NCBI GenBank assembly: GCA_028284885.1 | Contig: JANQQW010000048.1 | Span: 1 to 37,598 of the forward strand | DNA: 37,598 nucleotides | Direction: 5' to 3' | Origin: Planctomycetaceae bacterium | GTDB taxonomy: Bacteria; Planctomycetota; Planctomycetia; Planctomycetales; Planctomycetaceae | Part shown: piece after piece, positions 6,779-10,379 of the stretch | Numbering within the stretch: the first letter of the stretch is position 1 | How the letters are laid out: each line of letters starts with the position of its first letter | Made by a program: the position numbers and the translations under genes | The notes under the pieces: generated by a model | Database searches by the model: none | Seen by the model: only the letters and a program-made list of their open reading frames with translations | What the model was told of the DNA's origin: nothing

Positions 6779-8335
6779 ATGGCGTTTCGGACTTCGCTGC
6801 TCGTGCTGTTGACCTTCTTCGCCGCGGGCTGCGACGGACTCACCGTCGGCTGGTTCGGCGACGAGGAGGACGTGATCGCGTGCCCCGCCCCGGTCACTCC
6901 GCCGGACGACCCTCAGGACGCGCCGGCCGCTCCTCACGAGGACGAGGACGTGTGGACCGTCATGCAGATCGACGGCCAGCGGGTCGGCTACGGCCACACG
7001 ACCTCGAAGACGGTCGAACGCGACGGCGAGACGCTGGTCCAGACCGAGGACGAGTCGCAGATGCTGATGAAGCGGTTCGGCCAGGAGATCAAGCAGCGGA
7101 CGGAGATTCGTACGCTCGCCAAGCCGAACGGGGACCTCGTCGAGTTCTGGTCCGTCAGCAAGAACCCGCCGGCGGCTCCCACGCGGACCCACGCCGTCGT
7201 GCAGGGGAACGAACTCGTCCTGACGACCGAGACGGCCGGCAAGTCGAGCGAACGCCGCCTCCCGTGGAAGCCGGGCACCAAGTCGCCGCACTACGACTGG
7301 AACCTGAAGTCGAAGCCGTTGAAGGACGGCGAGAAGCGAACGGTCGAGGTCTTCCTGCCGGAGCTGAACGCCGTTGCCGAGATGTCGCTCGAGAAGGCGG
7401 GCGAACAGGAGATCACGCTGCTCGACGGCGAGAAGCGGACGCTCGAGCGGCTCGTCAGCACGAACTCCGTCATGCCGGGGAAGATCAGCTCGTTCGTCGA
7501 CGACGAGGGGGACGAACTGGTCACCTGCGTCGAGATCCTCGGGATGAAGATCGAGTCCCACGTGGTGCCGGAAGAGACCGCGCTCGAGAAGCTCGAAGGG
7601 GCCGAGCTCGACCTCGCGCTCGAGACGCTCGTTCCCGTCGAGCCGATCGCGAACGCCCACCGCACCAAGCGAGCCGTCTACCGGATTCGGACGCCGGGGG
7701 AGGACCCGGCGAAGTACGTCGTGGACGGCGGCCGGCAGTCGGTGAAGCGGATCGACGACGAGACGATCGAGGTGACCGTGCGTGCGGCCGAGTTCCCCGC
7801 GAAGCCGTCCGACGAGACGACGGACGCGGCGTACGTCGCGGCGACGCAGTTCCTGCAGAGCGGCGACGCGAAGGTGGTCGGCCACGCCGAGCAGGCGACG
7901 GGCGAGTTGACCGACCAGGTCGCGATCGCCAAGGCAATGGAGACGTACGTTCGCGAGAAGATCTCGGAGAAGAACTTCTCGACGGCTCTCGCCTCGGCAG
8001 CGGAGGTGGCAGAGCGGCTGGAGGGGGACTGCACGGAGCACGCCGTGCTGCTGGCCGCCATGCTGCGGGCGAAGAAGATCCCGTCCCGGATCGTCGTCGG
8101 CTTCGTCTACGCGGAGTCGCAGAAGGCGTTCGCCGGGCACATGTGGACGGAGGCGTTCCTCGGCAACGAGTGGGTCCCGCTCGACGCGACCCTGGGCCGG
8201 GCCGGCACGAAGGCCGCCCACCTCAAACTCGCCGACTCCGCCTTCGCCGACGAGGACGGCCACCCGATCACGTCCTTCCTGCCGGTGCTGGAGTGCATCG
8301 GGAAGTTGGAGATCGAGGTGGTCGAAGTGGAGTAG
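6779..8335 (+). CDS. Transglutaminase-domain lipoprotein
   Basis: A 518-residue protein with a lipoprotein signal (LLVLLTFFAAGC; lipidated Cys near residue 19), so it is exported and membrane-anchored. After a proline/aspartate-rich linker come about 300 residues of beta-rich sequence without a name I can give. The C-terminal transglutaminase-like fold has the catalytic triad visible as C418 in GDCTEHA, H454 in FAGHMWTEAF and D469 in PLDATLG. Members of this superfamily in bacteria are usually thiol proteases or amidases rather than cross-linkers; the substrate is unknown. It stands alone and is followed by a 770-base non-coding region. Confidence 0.88.
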   Translation: MAFRTSLLVLLTFFAAGCDGLTVGWFGDEEDVIACPAPVTPPDDPQDAPAAPHEDEDVWTVMQIDGQRVGYGHTTSKTVERDGETLVQTEDESQMLMKRFGQEIKQRTEIRTLAKPNGDLVEFWSVSKNPPAAPTRTHAVVQGNELVLTTETAGKSSERRLPWKPGTKSPHYDWNLKSKPLKDGEKRTVEVFLPELNAVAEMSLEKAGEQEITLLDGEKRTLERLVSTNSVMPGKISSFVDDEGDELVTCVEILGMKIESHVVPEETALEKLEGAELDLALETLVPVEPIANAHRTKRAVYRIRTPGEDPAKYVVDGGRQSVKRIDDETIEVTVRAAEFPAKPSDETTDAAYVAATQFLQSGDAKVVGHAEQATGELTDQVAIAKAMETYVREKISEKNFSTALASAAEVAERLEGDCTEHAVLLAAMLRAKKIPSRIVVGFVYAESQKAFAGHMWTEAFLGNEWVPLDATLGRAGTKAAHLKLADSAFADEDGHPITSFLPVLECIGKLEIEVVEVE

Positions 8336-8612: not shown

Positions 8613-8627
8613 TGGCACCCCGGTTGC
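8613..8627 (+). promoter_or_regulatory. Sigma-54 (RpoN) -24/-12 promoter
   Basis: TGGCAC (8613-8618), five bases, then TTGC (8624-8627) matches the sigma-54 consensus TGGCAC-N5-TTGC exactly. The invariant GG and GC are separated by the required ten bases. A T-rich stretch follows. Transcription would start near 8639. Sigma-54 promoters need an upstream activator; no activator gene is in the window. No protein-coding gene begins soon downstream, only the structured region that ends in the terminator at 8788. Confidence 0.75.
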
Positions 8628-8638
8628 TTTTCTACTTC

Positions 8639-8834
8639 CCCGGAGAGTGAGAGAGGCCCGAGTGAGCCACGGTCGTCTTTTGGGACCGAAATCACTCGTG
8701 TGCGAGGGACCTGAGAGACCCCTCGTACGACCCTTCCGGCCGTTGGAGAGCGGCCAACATCCCACCTATTTGCTTCCCCTCCCTTGACCGGGCCACGAGG
8801 ATCCCCGCATCCTCGTGGCCCGGTTTCCTTTTGT
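8639..8834 (+). ncRNA. Candidate sigma-54-dependent small RNA (~195 nt)
   Basis: The segment lies between a consensus sigma-54 promoter and a perfect intrinsic terminator and carries no credible open frame. It can form stem A (CGAGTGA 8659-8665 with TCACTCG 8692-8698) enclosing an inner stem CGGTC/GACCG (8670-8674, 8684-8688). Stem B is GTGCGAGGG 8700-8708 with CCCTCGTAC 8720-8728, including one G-U pair. Stem C is GGCCG 8738-8742 with CGGCC 8751-8755. A pyrimidine-rich, probably unpaired stretch (8760-8785, including CTTCCCCTCCC) precedes the terminator and would be complementary to Shine-Dalgarno-type sequences. A regulatory RNA that acts on mRNA starts is the natural guess. I do not recognise it as a known RNA family. 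Confidence 0.6.
8788..8834 (+). terminator. Strong rho-independent terminator
   Basis: CCGGGCCACGAGGAT (8788-8802) and its exact complement (8809-8823) form a 15-bp perfect stem with a six-base loop, followed by TTTCCTTTT (8824-8832). It is the best intrinsic terminator in the window. It is more likely to end the sigma-54 transcript than the transglutaminase mRNA, whose stop is 450 bases away. Confidence 0.85.
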
Positions 8835-8849
8835 TGGTTCGCTTCGCTC

Positions 8850-8880
8850 GTGTTCCGCCGTCTTCCTGACGGCCGAACAC
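8850..8880. repeat. Hairpin downstream of the terminator
   Basis: GTGTTC and GCCGTC (8850-8862) pair with GACGGC and GAACAC (8868-8880), giving 12 pairs around one mismatch and a five-base loop. No T-run follows. The flanks contain repeated CGCTCG words. The function is unknown. Confidence 0.5.
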
Positions 8881-8958
8881 GGCTCCGCTCACGAGGCCGC
8901 TCCGCTCGCGGTTTCCCTACCCGCTCGCTGCGCGGGGGCGTGGTCCTTCCCCAACCAA

Positions 8959-9040
8959 CCGAACACCGAAAACCGAAAACCGAAAACGCCTGCCAAGTCC
9001 CCAGTTCCGAACCCCCAGCCCCCAGTTCTCGCCCCCGACC
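8959..9040. repeat. 7-bp-period repeat (CCGAAAA and CCCCAGT families)
   Basis: Consecutive units CCGAACA, CCGAAAA, CCGAAAA and CCGAAAA (8959-8986) are followed, after about 12 bases, by CCCCAGT, TCCGAAC, CCCCAGC, CCCCAGT and TCTCGCC (8999-9033). The units differ in sequence but keep a seven-base step. The array lies about 70 bases upstream of the transporter start at 9108. Confidence 0.8.
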
Positions 9041-9107: not shown

Positions 9108-10379
9108 GTGTCCGAGCCACGTCGTCGCAATCTGCTGGCCTTGGTCGGGCCGGGGCTGCTGGTGGCGGCGACGGGGGTCGGGGCGGGCGACCTCGCGACC
9201 GGGGCGTTCACCGGGCGGGAACTGGGAACGGCCATCCTGTGGGCCGTCGTCGTCGGGGCGGGGGTCAAGTACGTCCTCAGTGAAGGCCTCACGCGGTGGC
9301 AACTCGCCACGCGGACGACGATCCTCGAGGGCGCGTGCACGAAGCTCGGGCCGGTCGTCCGCCACGGGTTCCTCGTGTACCTGCTCGTCTGGACGTTCGG
9401 CGTGGCGGCCGCGTTGATGAGTGCCTGCGGCGTGGCGGCCCACGCCCTCGTCCCGGTTGGGGACGCCGTCGCCGACAAGCAGCTCTACGGCCTGCTGCAC
9501 AGCCTCGTCGCCGTCGGGCTCGTCTTCCTCGGCGGCTACAAGCTGTTCGAGAAGGTGATGAGCGTCTGCATCGCCGTCATGTTCGTCACGGTGATCTCGA
9601 CCGCGGTCGCCATCGGCCCGGCCTGGGGCGAGATTCTCACCGGTCTGTTCGTGCCGTCGATTCCGAAGTGGAACGGCGGGGGCATCGAGTGGACCGTCGC
9701 CCTGCTGGGCGGCGTGGGCGGAACGCTGACGATCATCTCCTACGGCTACTGGATCCGCGAGGAGCAGCGGGACGGCATCGACGAACTCCCGGCCTGTCGT
9801 TGGGATCTCGCCACGGGCTACGGCATGACGGCCCTGTTCGGCATGGGCATGGTCGTCGTCGGGGCGACCTCCAAGCCGGACAGTTCGGCGAAGGGGGCGG
9901 CCCTCGTGCTCGACATCGCGGAGCACATCGGCCGGAGCCCCGCACTCGGCACGTTCGCCCCGGTCGCCGAGTGGGCCTTCCTGATCGGAGCGTGGTGCGC
10001 CGTCTTCAGCAGCCTGTTCGGCGTCTGGCAGTGCACGCCGTACTTCTTCGCCGACTACTGGCGGATCGCCTCGGGCAACCCGAACGCCCCGCCGGTCGAC
10101 ACGAGGTCCTGGACGTACCGCGGCTACCTGGTCGCGATGGGGACCGTCCCGGCCGTCGGGCTGTTCGTGGACTTCAAGTTCGTCCAGAAGTGGAACGCCA
10201 TCTGGGGGGCGCTCGTCATCCCGCTGCTCGCGGTCTTCCTGCTGGTGCTCAACGGTCGGCGGGAGTGGGTCGGCGAGCGGAACCGCAACTCCGTCGTCAC
10301 GATCGTGTTGCTCGGCCTGGCGGTCGCCTTCTTCGCGGTCTTCCTGACGCTCGGCGTCCAGAAGCGGCTCGTCGGGTGA
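9108..10379 (+). CDS. Nramp-type transporter, divergent
   Basis: A 423-residue inner-membrane protein with about eleven hydrophobic segments and the layout of the Nramp (SLC11) family: NLLALVGPGLLVAATGVGAG at the N-terminus, a long helix around GGTLTIISYGYWIREEQRDG, and a terminal helix pair. In classical Mn/Fe carriers TM1 carries DPGN and TM6 carries an M-P-H motif. Here TM1 reads GVGAGD and the TM6 region reads SYGYWIREE, so both metal-binding motifs are missing and manganese transport should not be assumed. The start is GTG at 9108. Its stop codon directly abuts the stop codon of the minus-strand oxidoreductase (10379/10380), so the two genes converge with no gap. Confidence 0.8.
   Translation: MSEPRRRNLLALVGPGLLVAATGVGAGDLATGAFTGRELGTAILWAVVVGAGVKYVLSEGLTRWQLATRTTILEGACTKLGPVVRHGFLVYLLVWTFGVAAALMSACGVAAHALVPVGDAVADKQLYGLLHSLVAVGLVFLGGYKLFEKVMSVCIAVMFVTVISTAVAIGPAWGEILTGLFVPSIPKWNGGGIEWTVALLGGVGGTLTIISYGYWIREEQRDGIDELPACRWDLATGYGMTALFGMGMVVVGATSKPDSSAKGAALVLDIAEHIGRSPALGTFAPVAEWAFLIGAWCAVFSSLFGVWQCTPYFFADYWRIASGNPNAPPVDTRSWTYRGYLVAMGTVPAVGLFVDFKFVQKWNAIWGALVIPLLAVFLLVLNGRREWVGERNRNSVVTIVLLGLAVAFFAVFLTLGVQKRLVG

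Follow-up and report, generated by a model that had tools for sequence, protein, structure and literature searches.

The intergenic region between the transglutaminase gene and the Nramp-type transporter gene in the window, which is the whole 37,598-nt contig analysed here and belongs to a 6.47-Mb genome of a Planctomycetaceae bacterium, very probably contains a gene for a small RNA transcribed from a sigma-54 promoter. As shown in Table 1, a sigma-54 consensus, a structured stretch and an intrinsic terminator follow one another in that order. Judged from sequence comparison, the promoter, hairpin P3 with its C-rich flanks, and the terminator including its C-rich loop form one conserved unit in about 24 genera, and the RNA belongs to a previously undescribed family within one planctomycete family. 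The first-pass annotation had read the locus as a sigma-54-driven stand-alone regulatory RNA and had named a covariance search among planctomycete genomes as one of its tests; the promoter, stems and terminator were found to be conserved in relatives, so that this reading is strongly supported.

Table 1. Features of the RNA locus and its neighbouring genes, in positions of the window.
Feature	Position	Strand	Basis or remark
Transglutaminase gene	6779-8335	+	upstream neighbour of the RNA
Sigma-54 (-24/-12) promoter TGGCAC-CCCGG-TTGC, exact TGGCACCCCGGTTGC	8613-8627	+	exact consensus
Predicted transcript, about 195 nt	8639-8834	+	start inferred 12 nt past the -12 GC; end inferred from the terminator
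Purine-rich 5' leader GGAGAGTGAGAGAGG	8642-8656	+	GAGUGAGAGA-type leader common to the closest homologs
Hairpin P1	8659-8698	+	MFE structure; no counterpart seen in homologs
Hairpin P2, 11-nt loop ACCTGAGAGAC at 8709-8719	8699-8729	+	MFE structure
Conserved core: CCTTCC 8732-8737, hairpin P3 8738-8755 (loop TGGAGA 8744-8749), CCCACC 8761-8766	8732-8767	+	R3 match, E = 2.5e-8, the window being one of the 10 R3 training sequences
CU stretch CTTCCCCTCCC	8773-8783	+	predicted paired with the leader; not conserved in homologs
Intrinsic terminator, 16 perfect pairs and one G-U, loop CCCCGC 8803-8808	8786-8825	+	loop CCCG kept in 38 of 53 homologs
U-rich terminator tail TCCTTTTGTT	8826-8835	+	adjoins the terminator stem
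Nramp-type transporter gene	9108-10379	+	downstream neighbour, same strand as the RNA

The exact TGGCAC-N5-TTGC promoter reported in the first-pass annotation was confirmed, and it is the sole match in the window even when one mismatch is allowed, a tolerance at which 1.83 matches are expected by chance. Over the genome, the exact pattern occurs at 10 sites compared with 22 for a reversed control pattern, which indicates that the motif by itself is not above chance. Unlike the motif count, however, the position of the promoter exceeds chance, because ORF inspection shows that the majority of the remaining exact sites in the genome precede gene starts by 50–250 nt and are correctly oriented. 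The genes downstream of these sites include groEL, hsp20, htpG and spoVG, each with an exact consensus just upstream (L005, L007, L011 and L012, on contigs C97, C184, C347 and C361 of the same genome), which suggests that sigma-54 may control a chaperone and stress regulon in this planctomycete. The genome carries one copy of rpoN (Sigma54_DBD, E = 1.6e-61).

The predicted fold of positions 8639–8840 has an energy of −94 kcal/mol with z = −5.0, and none of 200 shuffled sequences folded as well. Much of this z-score is ascribed to the terminator, because the value drops to only about −2.3 when the terminator is removed. The terminator itself had been recognised in the first-pass annotation, but its stem is longer than the 15 perfect base pairs given there. 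For the stretch CTTCCCCTCCC, assumed to be single-stranded in the first-pass annotation, folding predicts pairing with the purine-rich leader, with an unpaired probability of 0.02–0.35. Hairpin P1 is private to this genome. The C-rich elements CCTTCC, CCCACC and the terminator loop are conserved.

BLASTN searches with the locus against 99 relatives and then against 170 family genomes returned its own genome only, with no relative in the 169 others; a 20-base match to the promoter in L044 was judged to be due to chance. Relatives were detected with three covariance models, R1 to R3, whose E-values are rough. R1 was built from the window sequence alone (8642–8787), without the promoter or the terminator, and gave matches in other genera with E down to 3e-7. 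On reading, the closest of these matches contained the purine leader of the window RNA, a UGGAGA-loop hairpin, CCCACC segments and a strong terminator, together with a sigma-54-like element in the expected spacing, such as TGGCACGCGGGGTGC and TGGCACGGGTACTGC. R2 is a compact model in which P1 was omitted from the window row, and R3 is a core model of 36 positions and six pairs that was trained on 10 sequences and contains neither promoter nor terminator; both were built from trimmed segments, with short linkers N-padded in R3.

Searches with R2 and R3 placed the RNA, usually in a single copy, in about 24 of 58 genera and about 61 of 170 family genomes, the latter being a lower bound because stricter filters were applied to the large genome sets. 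At E ≤ 0.02, 52 genomes match R3, and the remainder were accepted on promoter plus terminator. Genome G200 of genus g34 holds two copies, L205 and L206, each with a promoter and a terminator. Seven R3 matches within the family (L224, L225, L228–L231 and L233) and L220 were rejected, as they have neither promoter nor terminator. Outside the family there was no credible match; the R2 and R3 matches read there likewise contain neither element and were rejected. At the curated threshold of Rfam 15, which covered any families held there for CrcZ, GlmY/GlmZ, Qrr, CsrB/RsmZ and 6S, neither the window nor 10 homolog loci gave a match, and only chance-level matches appeared below it. This agrees with the first-pass annotation, in which the RNA had been assigned to no recognised family. 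No earlier description of the RNA was found in the open-access literature, a scope outside which most subscription papers fall.

The promoter is conserved with the core. A strict TGGCAC-N5-NTGC element occurs within 300 nt upstream in 44 of the 53 accepted homolog loci, and in all 53 when single departures are allowed, compared with a background rate of 0.0006 per 300 nt for the strict pattern. When one locus was taken per genus, the −24/−12 element was present in all 23 genera examined (strict in 18), while none of the seven rejected R3 matches had it. G follows TGGCAC in 19 of these 23 genera and A or T follows TGC in 21, at positions outside the promoter search pattern. This evidence for conservation is independent, since both promoter and terminator were left out of R3 and the accepted loci nevertheless carry the promoter. 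The predicted transcripts of homologs with a near promoter are 140–215 nt long. In genera g23 and g30 the promoter lies farther upstream, at about 220–290 nt, which gives predicted lengths of about 300–490 nt, and the RNAs there may be longer or different.

The stem of P3 shows covariation. Among the 52 matches, representing 40 distinct sequences, 99.2% of cells are paired, and four of the six pairs vary on both sides, in 29 cells compared with 6.9 in shuffles. The signal collapses in slid controls, and the small training set gives a similar picture. The alignment was fitted to the model and leans towards its structure; yet only six pairs are concerned, and the slid controls fail. The terminator stem is uninterrupted over at least 10 pairs in 42 of the 53 homologs, and these stems diverge widely with compensatory changes, while CCCG is kept in the loop in 38 of the 53. 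None of the other hairpins with 10 or more perfect pairs in the homolog loci (5 in 230 kb) has such a loop. The terminator loops are not C-rich throughout: in genera g55 and g10 (L240, L241 and L242), GUGAGAA, which resembles the P2 loop of those RNAs, replaces CCCGC.

In the best explanation, sigma-54 RNA polymerase would produce a stand-alone small RNA starting at about 8639 and ending at about 8834 at its own intrinsic terminator, and the RNA would be switched on through some enhancer-binding protein. Its action in trans would rest on exposed single-stranded segments rich in C and poor in G, namely the CCCACC-type motifs flanking P3, a CACCU-enriched tail and the CCCGC terminator loop, which would pair with G-rich ribosome-binding sites and so prevent translation, with no need for Hfq. 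The purine loops (UGGAGA, and GAGAG-type loops and leader in subclades) would probably be a dock for a protein or a second RNA. We hold this explanation as a whole to be somewhat more probable than its negation; for the blocking of G-rich ribosome-binding sites in trans, the chances are about even.

Several observations bear on this mechanism. In the predicted ensembles, the C-rich flanks are mostly unpaired, with mean probabilities of 0.74 and 0.77; the enrichment of CCCACC in them is partly circular, because the flanks belong to R3. The tail after P3, which lies outside the model, consists of 47% C and 8% G. CACCT, which belongs to the core anti-Shine-Dalgarno sequence of 16S rRNA, occurs 10 times in the post-P3 tails, compared with 2.7 times in shuffles, none of 500 shuffles being as high; the tail of the window copy has no CACCUC. 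No Hfq was found in 120 family genomes, including this one, in a search that was positive for control genomes. Antisense pairing does not explain why the purine loop of P3 is so strongly conserved. Pairing with ribosome-binding sites had been proposed in the first-pass annotation and is plausible as an idea; the stretch named for it, CTTCCCCTCCC, is neither predicted to be unpaired nor conserved, whereas the other C-rich elements are.

CsrB and RsmZ are sponges of CsrA and consist of hairpins with purine loops, often containing GGA. A test of a similar role, in which the hairpin loops and the purine leader of the present RNA would capture an RNA-binding protein such as a CsrA paralog, was prompted by the striking expansion of CsrA (found in all 170 family genomes with 3–17 copies each, and 10 here) and by the GGA that P3 loops usually contain. 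GAGAG is also enriched, with 51 occurrences compared with 12 in shuffles, and in some copies one and the same loop is repeated along a series of hairpins, UUGGAGAG for L166 and the CUGAGA type for L182. However, the RNAs taken together show no excess of GGA (59 occurrences compared with 77 in shuffles; 15 and 17 for ANGGA), typically only about one unpaired GGA is found per RNA, and GAGAG is absent from several genera, such as g34, g41 and g2. Since GGA is not enriched and GAGAG is enriched only in subclades, these counts do not support a CsrA sponge of the usual kind. The C-rich segments and the terminator loop are conserved instead, unlike in CsrB/RsmZ. A protein sponge of some kind is possible but doubtful, and some protein may dock on the purine loops.

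A broader proposal combines these elements: the RNA would be the non-coding arm of a sigma-54 proteostasis and stress regulon in bacteria without detectable Hfq, co-induced with groEL, hsp20 and htpG, and would join anti-Shine-Dalgarno mimicry to purine-loop docking of a new RNA-binding partner, which may be SpoVG or a CsrA paralog whose specificity has changed. We give this proposal a small chance of being correct; if true, it would be a design unlike the known RNA chaperone systems.

The gene order bears on whether the RNA is instead a cis-acting leader or attenuator, whose conditional terminator would sense a signal and control the downstream gene. In 10 genera, that of the window among them, a transglutaminase homolog precedes the RNA on its own strand. 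In 8 genera (for example, at L241) the RNA is followed in the same orientation by hflX, the gene for an HflX-type GTPase, and in the window the Nramp gene takes this place, as a leader would have it. However, the downstream gene varies by genus, with Nramp, malate dehydrogenase, murC-like and other genes besides hflX. Two well-sampled genera, g38 and g34, usually have an oppositely oriented gene next downstream of the RNA: an RNase III gene in g38 and, in most g34 members, a rhamnulokinase-like gene named by inspection. No conserved alternative antiterminator pairing was seen. The upstream synteny in 10 genera and the varied downstream genes on either strand indicate one orthologous stand-alone locus; a cis-acting leader is improbable, and its role as a leader of hflX in particular is unlikely. 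In relatives where the downstream Nramp synteny was checked, the RNA is absent, and a search of GTDB contigs for Nramp relatives gave no close genome.

A chance assembly of a fortuitous sigma-54 match, GC-rich hairpins and the terminator of the upstream gene would accord with the lack of a genome-wide excess of the exact promoter pattern and with the modest structure once the terminator is excluded; it is very improbable and in practice refuted by conservation, as all elements occur together, in order, in about 24 genera. Hardly credible at all is a small protein-coding gene with incidental structure, for although the end of the longest plus-strand ORF inside the RNA (GTG 8647–8787, 46 aa) coincides with the terminator, its GC3 is 0.61, compared with 0.94–0.95 in the neighbouring genes, neither this ORF nor any frame over P3 is kept in the homologs, and the stems covary, which bears out the first-pass view that no credible gene is present.

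GlmY and Qrr are sigma-54-dependent small RNAs. So are CrcZ, CrcX and CrcY, and those of the CrcZ type antagonise Hfq-Crc (PMC8657755). In the present locus, as in all of these, a −24/−12 promoter drives a short terminated non-coding RNA; unlike the CrcZ type, it lies in a family in whose 120 searched genomes Hfq was not found, and it has no Rfam match.

The C-rich small RNAs of Staphylococcus aureus have exposed UCCC motifs that pair with Shine-Dalgarno sequences. The exposed C-rich motifs proposed here for such pairing resemble them, but there is no homology, the promoter class and the phylum differ, and the pairing is predicted only. The RNA NfeR1 of the alpha-r14 or cuckoo family in Alphaproteobacteria carries CCUCCUCCC anti-Shine-Dalgarno-like motifs in three hairpins, which pair with ribosome-binding sites (PMC10746234). 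Three hairpins, repeated C-rich motifs resembling anti-Shine-Dalgarno sequences in parts predicted to be unpaired, and freely varying stems are shared with the present RNA. However, in place of one CCUCCUCCC per hairpin, CCCACC is found here beside one hairpin, CACCU in the tail and CCCGC in the terminator loop; the CCUCCUCCC motif is absent from the window RNA and was not seen in the homologs read. The sigma-54 promoter, the planctomycete host and the lack of a sequence or Rfam match also set it apart. By analogy, the present RNA would work like the cuckoo RNAs and not be a member of their family.

One review puts the number of distinct small RNAs in the entire Planctomycetes-Verrucomicrobia-Chlamydiae group at just eight (PMC9029176). 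A mostly single-copy RNA in about 24 genera offers a defined entry to RNA regulation in a lineage without detectable Hfq and with 3–17 CsrA paralogs per genome. Because the RNA is short, its predicted regulator is RpoN and the predictions are sharp, the way in which this lineage achieves post-transcriptional control without Hfq becomes directly testable.

Some minor features were also observed. The P2 loop ACCTGAGAGAC recurs in L145/L146, in L182 and in L147, where three tandem hairpins on the plus strand at about 1471–1565 have near-identical loops (ACCUGAGAGAC or close to it) that equal the P2 loop of the window, the rest of the RNA being missing. In L166 (1501–1574, minus strand, and downstream) and L182 (1501–1576, plus strand, and downstream), a sigma-54-like promoter is followed by the repeated-loop hairpins described above, in a sponge-like arrangement, and these arrays are possible variants of the RNA. 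In the window, the gap between the terminator and the Nramp gene contains imperfect palindromic repeats at 8835–8960 (CGCTTCGCTCGTG, CGGCTCCGCTCACGAG and others).
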